A stretch of 64,000 bases of DNA, taken from positions 3,811,501 to 3,875,500 of the forward strand of contig NZ_CP025263.1 in NCBI RefSeq assembly GCF_002843605.1. Direction: 5' to 3'. Positions within the stretch are counted from its first letter, which is position 1. The number at the start of each line of letters is the position of its first letter. The stretch is from Pseudomonas sp. S09G 359. Lineage in GTDB: Bacteria > Pseudomonadota > Gammaproteobacteria > Pseudomonadales > Pseudomonadaceae. Under the pieces are notes generated by a model. The model searched no databases, was not told where the DNA came from, and saw only the letters and a list, made by a program, of their open reading frames with translations. Both the position numbers and the translations under genes were made by a program. Below are positions 6,054 through 10,648 of the stretch, in pieces.

Positions 6054-6162
6054 ACCGCCGATCATCGGCTGGCTGTATGCCAGCACGATGAACGCTCTGA
6101 AAAACCTGCGTGTGCGCTTACAATCCCGGTTTTCAACGCACACCAGGCAGACCCGGCAAGAC

Positions 6163-7323
6163 ATGGCGCTCGACCCTCCTACGATTCTGGCACTTACGGT
6201 TGCCCTGGCAGCCGCTGCCGCTCTTTACCTGGCCGTTGAATGGCGGAGCGTGCGCGAGCCGTCGCTGCTGTTCTGGAGCGCCGGTTTCGCCACCATCACC
6301 CTGGGTTCTACCCTCGCCCTGCTGCGCAGCAACGGCTATCTGGTCATCGGGATCTGGTTCGCCAATGGCTTGCTGGTGAGCGCGCATTTTCTGTTTTTAC
6401 TCGGTGTCGCGCGGTTTACCCAGGTTCGCCTTTCCCGGCGGTGGTGGCTGATGCTGGTGATCTGGCTCGGCATGCTGATGCTGCCGGCCGACCTGCCCTG
6501 GTCCAAAGCCATGCTGGGGGTGCAGTCGCTGCTGGTGGCCGTGCCGACCCTGCGCGCGAGTTTCCTGCTGCGGCCCCATGGCAAATCCCTGAGCATCGGC
6601 GCGGTGCAGTTGCGCTATGTGCTGCTGATCCATGGGATTTTCTACCTGATCAAGGCTGCGTCGGTGCTGGTCCCGGGCACCTTGATCGACCTGGCCGCGT
6701 TCAAGGGCGAGATCATCCAGGTCTCCCTGGTGGAAGGCGCCATGGCGATCATGCTGATCGCGTTGTCGATGACCGGCTCCGAACGCTATCGCCGCGAACA
6801 GCAGATCGCCCGCCTCGCCGCCCGCGACCCGCTGACCGCTCTGTACAACCGGCGCGCCCTGGATTTGCGCGCACCACGCCTGCTCGCCCAGGTTTCAGCG
6901 GCGCAACCGGGTGCGCTGCTGCTGATCGATATCGACAACTTCAAAGGCGTCAACGACCTCTACGGCCATACCGCCGGTGACCGTTTGCTGATTGCCTTGA
7001 GCGAGATGATCCGCAGCGTGGTGCCTCAGGGTGCGCTGGCCGCACGCCTGGGCGGGGATGAGTTTGTGATCCTGCTGTACCCGGCCTCGACCGCGCAGAT
7101 CGTCGAACTGGGCAGCAGCCTGCGCGAGCAGTTCCAGCAACTCGCCGCGCAGACGTTCGCCACGCCGCAACCGGTGACGCTGAGCATCGGCGCCAACCTG
7201 TTCGACCAGCCGCCGGCCAGCCTGGCCGCGTTGATCGAACAGGGCGATACCACACTGTATGAATCCAAGCGTGGCGGCCGCGACAGCATTCGCTTGGTGG
7301 ATCGGACTGGGGCTTACCGCTAG
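6163..7323 (+). CDS. Membrane diguanylate cyclase (GGDEF)
   Basis: A 386-residue protein. Residues 1-205 hold six or seven hydrophobic helices (a membrane sensor of unknown ligand), and residues about 225-380 form a GGDEF domain that makes cyclic di-GMP from two GTP. The active-site motif GGDEF is intact at residues 297-301, and 'DPLTALYNRRAL' marks the domain start. The RxxD inhibitory site normally five residues before GGDEF is absent (the positions read PQGA), so product inhibition through that site is not expected. Met 6163 is preferred over 6088 because it precedes the first membrane helix directly. The stop codon lies 3 bp from the left repeat of the mini-island. Confidence 0.9.
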   Translation: MALDPPTILALTVALAAAAALYLAVEWRSVREPSLLFWSAGFATITLGSTLALLRSNGYLVIGIWFANGLLVSAHFLFLLGVARFTQVRLSRRWWLMLVIWLGMLMLPADLPWSKAMLGVQSLLVAVPTLRASFLLRPHGKSLSIGAVQLRYVLLIHGIFYLIKAASVLVPGTLIDLAAFKGEIIQVSLVEGAMAIMLIALSMTGSERYRREQQIARLAARDPLTALYNRRALDLRAPRLLAQVSAAQPGALLLIDIDNFKGVNDLYGHTAGDRLLIALSEMIRSVVPQGALAARLGGDEFVILLYPASTAQIVELGSSLREQFQQLAAQTFATPQPVTLSIGANLFDQPPASLAALIEQGDTTLYESKRGGRDSIRLVDRTGAYR

Positions 7324-7326
7324 AGG

Positions 7327-7361
7327 TCGTAACTGACCGCCACACTGCGCCCGGTCTGCAC
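7327..7361. repeat. Left 35-bp direct repeat (attL-like) of mini-island
   Basis: These 35 bases are identical to 9651-9685. The right copy is the last codons of the iolG-like gene. Read on the minus strand, the left copy also encodes that gene's C-terminal peptide (VQTGRSVAVSYD) and is followed by CTC TAG, so it preserves a former gene end. This is the layout left by site-specific integration into a gene's 3' end. Confidence 0.85.
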
Positions 7362-7743
7362 AGTACACACGCATCAGAATAGTTATTATGTTCAGACATT
7401 TCGATAGCTTCCCAAGCTTAGCTGCTTGTTGCGAAGCGAGTGATGGGATAGCACTCCTTAATCTGGCAAGCAGTTAACAAAAGAGTGACCTTTGTATCAC
7501 AGTCATAATATCAACTGAAATGCACGCCTCAAGCAAACTTCAGATGCGCTTGAAAGCACGAAAATACAAGATACCAATATATCGCCGACGTGAGGTATGA
7601 TCAGCACCGCCCATTAAAATTGACCGATACCATGCCAGCGAAAATACAGAACTTGATAGTTGATCACGCAATAGCGATTATGGGTTCACGTTGAAAACCC
7701 ACTCTCTTATGTGAACAACGACTCCCCACGCAAAAATCACGCA
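7362..7743. other. Non-coding left arm of the mini-island
   Basis: This 380-bp AT-rich stretch separates the left repeat from the first island gene. I find no convincing gene, and no recombinase remnant is visible. It probably holds the promoter for the DUF6414-like gene; several AT-rich hexamers are possible -10 elements, but none is paired with an obvious -35. Composition changes abruptly at about 7370 compared with the flanking GC-rich DNA. Confidence 0.5.
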
Positions 7744-8661
7744 ATGGATATGCCAATGAACTCCTATATCGAACCCATATACTTAAACGAAAAAATGGTT
7801 TTAAACTGCGCCGCATACTTATTCAAAGGCGTAGCTATGGAATCAGAGTCACAGAAAGGCACATCACTGAGCGGAAAAGGCAACATAAGTCTTGGATTCA
7901 AATTTTTGAGTGATTTGATTTCTCCAATTTCAGGTAATGGAGAGTTCACTAAGGACTCCACATCGACCACTAAAACCGCTCGTAGATACACAATGGGTGG
8001 TTTGCACATGACCCTAATTGATGAATTAAACAGTAGAGAATTGATAGACCACAAATTTAATGTAATGAAAATTTCAAATAATTCAAGCTTCGTGGAGCTT
8101 GATGTGATCCTTAAGCCTGTCGACTTCTATTCAATACTTGAAGCATTGAAAATCTCCGCACCACTGATATGCCAGGTACTTCAAAATTTCGGCGACAAAA
8201 TAAACCAAAAAGTTTTCTCAAACAAAAAGCTAAAAGATGACATAAAAAGATATGAAGAGCTCATATCACAAATTCTTTCGGAACTCGAAAGCGATTACCT
8301 TAAGTCCGGGCAACTTGAGATGATAATGTTCTGCCCGAACTCCAATCGTCAGATAGGGATATTGGACGTTGACGTTGGTGATGCAGATGCGCCTTCTGTT
8401 AAAGCCAAGTTAACAGATGGTAGATTCCGAGTAATTGGTAGAGTTTCTAGACATATTGAAGAAGGCGAGTCGATTAGCCTTATGCAGAGAACAGTATTAT
8501 CTTCAATACTCGGTATAGTTGAAAAAGTGGTGGGTATCACCGATAGCATTCAAGATTATAGAAGTGGCATGCTGGTCGCAACCACAATGGCGCAAAAAGT
8601 ATGCCAGCTCAATCTACCAGGACCAGCGGTTAGAGTCATGGCAATGTCAGTATGTATTTGA
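7744..8661 (+). CDS. DUF6414-like protein (putative conflict-system component)
   Basis: A protein of about 305 residues with AT-rich codon use unlike its neighbours. The N-terminal 'YIEPIYLNEKMVLN', a central 'FVELDVILKPVDFYSILEAL' and the late 'GRFRVIGRVSRHIEEGESISLMQRTVL' match the pattern I recall for DUF6414, a family of unknown function. There are no membrane helices or signal peptide, so it is likely cytosolic. The start is uncertain: ATGs at 7744, 7750 and 7756 and GTG at 7711 are all possible, and none has a strong ribosome site. It is followed 116 bp later by the DUF6602-like gene inside the same island. The function is unknown. Confidence 0.6.
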   Translation: MDMPMNSYIEPIYLNEKMVLNCAAYLFKGVAMESESQKGTSLSGKGNISLGFKFLSDLISPISGNGEFTKDSTSTTKTARRYTMGGLHMTLIDELNSRELIDHKFNVMKISNNSSFVELDVILKPVDFYSILEALKISAPLICQVLQNFGDKINQKVFSNKKLKDDIKRYEELISQILSELESDYLKSGQLEMIMFCPNSNRQIGILDVDVGDADAPSVKAKLTDGRFRVIGRVSRHIEEGESISLMQRTVLSSILGIVEKVVGITDSIQDYRSGMLVATTMAQKVCQLNLPGPAVRVMAMSVCI

Positions 8662-8677
8662 CATCAACTCTAAAATC

Positions 8678-8700
8678 GGTATAGGTATAGGTATAGGATA
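8678..8700 (+). repeat. Short tandem repeat GGTATA x3
   Basis: Three exact GGTATA units (8678-8695) followed by GGATA lie just after the stop codon of the DUF6414-like gene. Such a tract could vary in copy number by slippage. It lies 80 bp before the downstream start and could alter spacing in a leader, but nothing ties it to regulation. Confidence 0.7.
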
Positions 8701-8777
8701 ATTGTTATTTTAAGGCGCCATCCGAGTCTTTCAGCCATAAGTAGCAATAAGCATAATCATTAAAAGGAATTAAGAAG

Positions 8778-9481
8778 ATGAAAGCACTAATTGAGTATTG
8801 CGATGGTGCCGTAAAAGCTTTGAACCCGCAGTATGTTATGTCCAAAGTATTGGGGCATTCGGCCACTTCCGGATCTGTACGGGAACGTCTGATACAAGAT
8901 TTCCTGATCACCCACCTCCCCGAGATGACAAATATAGTAAGCGGCGTAATTATTGATTCGGAGGGAAGTAGATCCAAACAACAAGACATCTTGCTAATGT
9001 TAAAATCCATGCCAAGACCTCCTTTTGCTAGCGGTCAAGATCTTATATTCCAAGAGGGCACAGTGGCAACCTTTGAGATTAAAACAGGAGTAACACCAGC
9101 AACCCTCGGCAATATTGCAAAAACATCGAAAGCGTTAAATATATAAAGTCCAGTTCCTTAGGAGGAGCCCGCATCGGTCACCAGAGATGGCCGCACACAC
9201 GGATACTAACAATAATATTGACTTATAAAGGGTCGCCATTGAGCAGTATTGAGCAAGCTTTAAGCAACTTACCGAGCATCGATCAACCCGACATCTATTT
9301 AGACCTTTCGAAAGGGATTTTAATTAAAAATGAAGGTCTACTTTATGATTTAGAGGGGACCAAACCTTATCTTCAGTTCGATACCCCAGCTATTGGATTG
9401 GCTCGACTACTCATCTCGCTTTCAACAATCACCGGCAACTTAATACTGCGAGATATCAAGTGGGAGCAATACCTTGATTGA
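8778..9481 (+). pseudogene. DUF6602-like PD-(D/E)xK nuclease-fold protein, frameshifted
   Basis: The first frame encodes 122 residues, then stops at 9144-9146. The sequence continues without stops in another frame through 9481, and the join is in register near 9126-9133, where one base appears to be missing from a short A run. The joined product would be about 234 residues. Part one has 'DSEGSRSKQQDI' (Asp70) and 'FEIKT' (Glu100-x-Lys102), matching the catalytic pattern of PD-(D/E)xK folds and my recollection of DUF6602. Part two has 'SLGGARIGHQRW', 'PDIYLDLSKGILI' and 'KWEQYL'. AGGA at 8765-8768 precedes the ATG at 8778. It may be a real mutation, a sequencing error, or less likely recoding. 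Confidence 0.65.
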
Positions 9482-9536
9482 GAAATTTCCTGTAAAAGTA
9501 GATCCCACCTAGACTTTACTGCATATAGCGTTATGA

Positions 9537-9581
9537 AACGCCGCACCATGAAGGGCGGTTATTTTTTGTAAATATCCGCCC
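9537..9581 (+). terminator. Candidate terminator hairpin at island 3' end
   Basis: Downstream of the frameshifted gene, GGGCGG at 9553-9558 and CCGCCC at 9576-9581 form an inverted repeat with an inner ATTT/AAAT pairing. A weaker overlapping CGCC/GGCG hairpin just upstream is followed by a run of T. Either could end transcription of the island operon. Confidence 0.5.
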
Positions 9582-9643
9582 ACAAAATTGGACTCTTACG
9601 ACTAGGTCTCCAGCTAGATCCTGAGGATCCCAGTCAGATTAGT

Positions 9644-10648
9644 CTAAAAATCGTAACTGACCGCCACACTGCGCCCGGTCTGCACCGACTCCAACGCACA
9701 ATCTGCCAGGTGCAACGCGTACAACCCGTCACGCATGCCTGTGGGCAAGGCCTGGCCGTTGTTCAGTGCATCGATGAACTGGGTCAGTTCATTGCGATAG
9801 GCATCGGCATACCGCTCCAGGAAAAAATGCTGCAACGGCTCCAATGCTTCGGTGTGCTCGGCGCTCCAGTGGCGCAAGGTGCTCGGGCGGTGGTTGTCGG
9901 TGAGCAGCACGCCATGGGCGCCGGACACCTCGACGCGCTGGTCGTAACCGTACACGGCCTGTCGGCAGCAGTTGATATGGCATTGTTTGCCGGAGGCGGT
10001 GCGCAGCAGCACCATCACGCTGTCGTAATCGTCGATCTGTTCCAGGCTCGGGTCCACCAGGCGGCTGGCGATGGCACTGACTTCCACCGGTTCTTCGCCA
10101 AGCAGGTGGCGGGCGGTGTCGAAGTCGTGAATGGTCATGTCGCGCAGGATGCCGCCGGAGTGCTCCAGGTAGTCACGCGGGGCCAGGCCTGGGTCGCGGC
10201 TGGTGATGATCACTTGGCGCACCGCGCCGATCTGGCCGGCGTCGAGGGCCTGGCGCAGGCGCAGCATGTCGGGGTCAAAACGGCGGTTGAAGCCGAGCAT
10301 GGCCTTGCCGCCCTGGCGCTCCACAGCCTGGGCGGCGCTACGCGCCTTGGCGATATCCAGGTCGATGGGCTTTTCGCAGAGCACCGCCTTGCCTTCGGCG
10401 ACTGCCGCCAGCAATAAATCGATATGGGTGTCGGTGGGGGTGCCGATCACCACGGCGTCGATGTCTTGGCGGCTGAGCACGGCGGCGCAATCGTAGGCCG
10501 CCTCACAGCCCAGTTGCGTGCTCAGTGCATCAACGCCTTCGCGCCATGGGTCAGCCACCAGCACCAGCGTGGCATTGGGGTGGGCGGCGACGTTGGCGGC
10601 GTGGATCTTGGCGATGCGCCCGGCACCTAGAACGGCGATACGTAGCAT
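9644..10648 (-). CDS. iolG: Inositol 2-dehydrogenase-like Gfo/Idh/MocA oxidoreductase
   Basis: A 334-residue NAD(P)-dependent dehydrogenase. The N-terminal Rossmann motif is GAGRIA (residues 8-13), the Glu-Lys-Pro motif is at 92-94 with Lys93 expected in catalysis, and 'RDMTIHDFD' (His174) is typical of IolG, which oxidises myo-inositol to scyllo-inosose. AGGAG lies 7 bp before the ATG. The last residue is now Phe; the displaced copy at 7327 would have ended in Leu, so the mini-island insertion changed the C-terminus by one residue. It neighbours a LacI regulator and a catabolic cluster. The exact cyclitol or sugar substrate is inferred. Confidence 0.8.
   Translation of the reverse strand: MLRIAVLGAGRIAKIHAANVAAHPNATLVLVADPWREGVDALSTQLGCEAAYDCAAVLSRQDIDAVVIGTPTDTHIDLLLAAVAEGKAVLCEKPIDLDIAKARSAAQAVERQGGKAMLGFNRRFDPDMLRLRQALDAGQIGAVRQVIITSRDPGLAPRDYLEHSGGILRDMTIHDFDTARHLLGEEPVEVSAIASRLVDPSLEQIDDYDSVMVLLRTASGKQCHINCCRQAVYGYDQRVEVSGAHGVLLTDNHRPSTLRHWSAEHTEALEPLQHFFLERYADAYRNELTQFIDALNNGQALPTGMRDGLYALHLADCALESVQTGRSVAVSYDF
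9651..9685. repeat. Right 35-bp direct repeat (attR-like) of mini-island
   Basis: A perfect copy of 7327-7361, lying inside the 3' coding end of the iolG-like gene and so keeping that gene intact. Gene-end overlap with one repeat and an orphan copy at the far side is the usual outcome of integrase-mediated insertion. Confidence 0.85.

Follow-up and report, generated by a model that had tools for sequence, protein, structure and literature searches.

A 2.3-kb islet in the 3' end of iolG of Pseudomonas sp. S09G 359 with a DUF6414 gene and a frameshifted gene for a predicted NucC-fold nuclease

The DNA analysed here (the window) comprises 64,000 nucleotides, base 3,811,501 to 3,875,500 of the single-contig 6.77-Mb genome of Pseudomonas sp. 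S09G 359, and contains a small AT-rich islet between a diguanylate-cyclase-type gene (DGC) and iolG (Table 1). The islet carries one gene of the DUF6414 family and one of the DUF6602 family, the latter split over two frames, and is bounded by a perfect 35-bp direct repeat that is embedded in a 42-bp block of 93% identity. Allowing up to 3 mismatches, the 35-bp sequence occurs twice in the whole genome, both times at this locus, and no exact match shared by the two 4-kb flanks of the DUF6414 gene is longer, 20 shuffles giving at most 14 bp. The guanine-plus-cytosine (GC) content of the islet compares with a window median of 61.7%, and every one of the 12 lowest-GC stretches of 2289 bp in the window (100-base steps) overlaps it. 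An earlier interpretation of this DNA, made from the letters alone (the sequence-only reading), had described an AT-rich island flanked by a perfect 35-bp repeat, with DUF6414-like and DUF6602-like cargo and a right repeat formed by the 3' coding end of an iolG-like gene. All of this holds in the repeat, shuffle and GC scans and in the family searches, iolG matching its profile with E 3.7e-118 and 394 bits (cut-off 355). DGC is so named after a GGDEF motif in its translation rather than from a family search, and a 5-bp inverted pair in the 42-bp block (GACCG/CGGTC) is noted here and not relied on.

Table 1. Features at the iolG insertion site, in positions of the window
Feature	Position	Strand	Remarks
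DGC, diguanylate-cyclase-type gene, left neighbour of the insertion site	6088..7323	+	Open reading frame; GGDEF motif
Left repeat, attL-like; displaced original iolG 3' end	7320..7361		Perfect 35-bp part 7327-7361
Islet between the repeats	7362..9650		2289 bp, 41.1% GC
DUF6414 gene, open	7744..8661	+	305 codons from ATG 7744; PF19952, E 6e-25
DUF6602, N-terminal part (NucC-like nuclease)	8778..9146	+	PF20247, E 5.4e-16; PADLOC NucC, E 1.4e-8
DUF6602, C-terminal part, other frame	9083..9481	+	Homologous from ~9122 (family residues 116-233)
Right repeat, attR-like; current iolG 3' end	9644..9685		Perfect 35-bp part 9651-9685
iolG, inositol 2-dehydrogenase; 3' end is the insertion site	9644..10648	-	TIGR04380

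The same place was then read in relatives. At the threshold used, iolG was found in 39 of 338 genomes of the genus (own genome included), and 30 loci were fetched and all of them read. In relatives, iolG and DGC are convergent and touch. DGC lies within the 1.5-kb flank of iolG in 10 of 29 relatives, in 8 of which the stop codons overlap (by 4 bp in six, by 13 and 19 bp once each), and the two genes are separated by 51 bp in G176 and by 1020 bp in G017. An eleventh relative, G338, has iolG and DGC 2 kb apart with different cargo between them, and the remaining 18 are uninformative on the site, since DGC is not found within 1.5 kb of iolG. When the window flanks are joined at the repeat, a 4-bp overlap and an iolG tail reading SYDL before the stop result, as in G245 (L114) and G357 (L112). 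In the window this old end lies on the left, where the iolG stop (CTA, 7320-7322) overlaps the DGC stop (7321-7323), and the tail that iolG now has, SYDF before the stop, is the right-hand one, alongside the islet. The islet had been taken for a mobile unit in the sequence-only reading, and an empty site in relatives agrees with this. In the simplest account, the left copy would be the displaced old end, the right copy would have been brought in with the islet, its SYDF tail replacing SYDL, and recombination inside the shared block would have restored the gene.

In the DUF6602 gene of the islet, the reading frame is interrupted between family residues 114 and 116: the N-terminal piece follows the family up to about residue 114 and then runs through an out-of-frame tail to a stop. 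Over residues 1-114 this piece is 78% identical to the protein of G030, and 118 residues of the C-terminal piece match at 56% identity (E 2e-48). That the frameshift is an artefact of this assembly alone was rejected on the basis of protein P0227, whereas a shared systematic error may still apply. The earlier mention of a "frame-repaired pair" suggests that the frameshift had been noticed, although the reason given with it did not mention one. D70, E100 and K102, the catalytic residues of PD-(D/E)xK nucleases, are present in the N-terminal piece and invariant in the family alignment, and the NucC fold is found over the full length of the model of the intact G030 relative, not of the broken window gene. 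The proposal of a PD-(D/E)xK nuclease is thus borne out by catalytic residues and fold, with NucC as the homologue. In G030 the intact DUF6602 gene stands alone (L039, 6338-7042; 47% GC, locus 56%), with an apparent polysaccharide gene cluster on one side and tRNA-Ser(GGA) on the other, and its flanking repeats do not exceed chance.

By fold and catalytic residues, the DUF6602 nuclease is a member of the NucC superfamily, which does not by itself make it an effector of cyclic triadenylate (cA3). NucC, a cA3-activated endonuclease of cyclic-oligonucleotide-based antiphage signalling systems (CBASS) and of type III CRISPR (clustered regularly interspaced short palindromic repeats) systems, is about 20% identical to DUF6602, which differs here in having no cyclase beside it and in carrying methionine at two cA3-contact positions. 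A structure paper on NucC reportedly gives R53, Y81 and T226 as cA3 contacts; the first two positions align with M50 and M78, both nearly invariant in the DUF6602 family, and T226 was not placed in the alignment. A domain scan, in which Cas10 was not searched, found no cyclase gene in the operon, DUF6414 being the only companion of DUF6602 between the repeats. DUF6602 is thereby tied to NucC as a nuclease of predicted NucC fold with a close relative standing without a cyclase, and because of this and the absence of these two contacts in the family, another trigger would be expected. The best PADLOC match is PDLC01495 "PD_DExK", which the window piece reaches with E 1.7e-20 and the G030 copy with E 8.6e-25, and which PADLOC describes as CRISPR-associated; a CRISPR locus was sought only within the fetched neighbourhood, again without Cas10.

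We consider it reasonably probable that the 2.3-kb islet came to lie precisely in the iolG 3' end through site-specific recombination by a recombinase from elsewhere, with an open DUF6414 gene and the frameshifted gene for the predicted NucC-fold nuclease as its cargo. The absence of an own recombinase, already stated in the sequence-only reading, is consistent with the Pfam scan, which found no recombinase domain in the cargo frames and in 10 of the 12 frames of the two non-coding ends, the 116-bp spacer (8662-8777) being left out. The integrase would have been of the tyrosine type, supplied in trans or lost later, and would have joined a circular islet to the chromosome within the 35 bp, with iolG retaining its full reading frame and gaining a new last residue. 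Intact DUF6602 relatives, once triggered, are predicted to cut double-stranded DNA and to abort phage infection in the manner of NucC, which cA3 is described to activate by assembly from trimer to hexamer (PMC9704534). The window copy, with its second half out of frame, most likely no longer acts, and DUF6414 may travel and act alone. As a very small islet without a recombinase, the locus offers a clean and checkable case in which both gene ends, new and displaced, can be read as well as the empty site.

Several results weigh against this reading. The scanned frames of the non-coding ends have no Pfam match and no recombinase for the site was identified, the 20-bp core of the repeat is absent from IMG/VR, and a search of 50,697 phage records gave nothing for either the DUF6414 or the DUF6602 protein. 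The own genome has 0 matches to the SMODS cyclase, so that a CBASS-like trigger is not seen, and for proteins of either family no phage test turned up in the literature searched. An initial survey of 95 genomes revealed no empty site. Furthermore, iolG ends in NYDF in L124 and L125, which have no islet within the 1.5-kb flank and no DGC neighbour, and the YDF end is thus natural variation in the genus and alone no mark of the islet. Finally, the cargoes between DGC and iolG in G017 and G338 have no direct repeats of at least 12 bp, which implies that this gap can gain DNA by another route.

The alternative to be taken most seriously, although we hold it to be somewhat doubtful, is that the islet is what remains of a once larger integrative element, such as a prophage, an integrative and conjugative element (ICE) or an integrative and mobilisable element (IME), whose integrase and transfer genes were deleted, and that it was never mobile at its present size. 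Cis-mobilisable elements (CIMEs) are described as ICEs or IMEs that have decayed but retain attL and attR (PMC5704250), and one cargo gene of the islet is already broken; however, neither integrase nor relaxase nor phage genes left a trace in the scanned frames of the non-coding ends, and none of the other fetched loci has a match to these ends. The islet resembles CIMEs in its attL- and attR-like repeats, in the lack of integration and transfer genes in the scanned frames and in its site at the 3' end of a gene, and differs in its size of just 2.3 kb and in that no parent ICE or IME was found. By this analogy it may work like a cis-mobilisable element. That the repeats instead arose from homologous recombination or a repair-linked duplication of the iolG end is unlikely: the repeat-free DNA in G017 and G338 and the YDF end in the two relatives lacking the islet would suit it, but a plain duplication would give two like ends and insertion by an integrase predicts a donor end, so that the old end on the left, the different end on the right and the drop in identity outside the shared block speak against it.

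The DUF6414 protein of the window is identical to a 305-residue protein (P0001) whose listed contigs reach 33,395 bases. The family is rare in the genomes surveyed, with 6 of 398 in the genus, 3 of 369 in the class and 7 of 398 in the phylum (6 of these 7 over the cut-off), own genome included. In all 15 loci compared, the gene has a GC content 7 to 20 points below that of its locus, and in most of them it stands, by eye, between chromosomal genes with no evident partner. Five Acinetobacter (L091, L092, L093, L094, L097) hold it at the same place, at 29-30% GC, behind a large gene which by eye we take to be valS (valyl-tRNA synthetase), an apparent case of long-term retention. In L083 it adjoins SLATT_4, and in two distant bacteria it directly follows an AAA ATPase gene (L106, 5879-8479; L090, 3477-5497). 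Four Pseudomonas (L078, L079, L080, L081) have a distant member that stands, by eye, next to an apparent integrase and a small hydrophobic protein, with tRNA-Ser adjoining the integrase in L079 and L081; the small proteins of L078 and L081, the two scanned, have no Pfam match. In L107 (4790-10448) the gene lies in an attC-like array with 83-bp repeats around it, and in L105 (3628-4738), where a GmrSD gene lies some 1.4 kb away, it is tightly flanked by an 11-bp GCGGCGTTAGG pair not longer than chance. DUF6414 may also move as integron cassettes (L107, perhaps L105). Such cassettes resemble the islet in carrying the same family as mobile cargo and differ from it in their repeats: for the window locus an integron cassette was rejected, as it has no attC-like repeat and its site is 35 bp of iolG. 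Members in L108 and L109 stand, by eye, beside repressor-like genes of apparent prophages, that of L108 matching PHROG 9699 (function unassigned), and one Vibrio phage holds a distant member.

These neighbourhoods are settings in which defence genes often occur. As no phage test was found, a defence role is read from the locations of the relatives, from which an accessory role of this kind appears most likely for DUF6414. No paper naming DUF6414 or DUF6602 was found in the literature searched, and DUF6414 presents itself as a broad, mobile and apparently unstudied family.

The sequence-only reading had further seen in the two cargo genes the typical form of a defence or toxin cassette. In a true two-gene defence system, DUF6414 would sense phage and trigger the NucC-like DUF6602, the window copy being recently broken. 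The counts give this little room. In two draws of 398 Pseudomonas genomes, taken as the same set, DUF6414 occurs in 6, DUF6602 in 40 and both in 3 (G000, G038, G271), the window included, against 0.6 expected; adjacency is confined to the window (1 of the 6 and 1 of the 40), as the other two genomes carry the families on different contigs. The DUF6602 profile, which recovered 27 of 30 known DUF6602 loci, found nothing around 28 further DUF6414 loci, which represent 26 distinct places and were scanned over at most 10 kb to either side (less in several cases), so that the neighbour association is largely missing. In addition, the close DUF6602 of G030 stands without DUF6414, this genome not being among the DUF6414 matches, and the nuclease half is broken in the window. 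For a pair speak the adjacency on the same strand, the co-occurrence above expectation, the effector-like genes (SLATT_4, AAA ATPases) and small hydrophobic proteins beside DUF6414 relatives, and a possible second pair on one contig, the longest contig listed for both P0005 (DUF6414) and P0182 (DUF6602) having exactly 35,090 bases. A dedicated two-gene defence system is nevertheless improbable, and it is simplest to suppose that two single genes, each mobile, came together in the islet.

The model of DUF6414 has middling confidence (predicted local distance difference test, pLDDT, 71.4), and proteins of the oligonucleotide/oligosaccharide-binding (OB) fold recur among its weak structural matches. 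It would be a long shot to see in DUF6414 an interchangeable, nucleic-acid-binding (OB-like) sensor of an undescribed family of defence modules, combined with different killers (the NucC-like nuclease here; elsewhere AAA ATPases and SLATT or small membrane proteins) and spread as small mobile cargo in islets, integron cassettes and prophage immunity regions.

A narrow literature search returned no report of iolG as an integration site. With three different cargoes in the gap between DGC and iolG (window, G338, G017), the iolG end appears to be a small hotspot. The cargo of G338 (L140, 12615-14407), for which no flanking repeats were found, encodes a PAAR-domain protein and, downstream of it, a small protein, likely a secreted effector with its immunity gene, and that of G017 (L037, 2694-3467) is an astacin-family metalloprotease gene.
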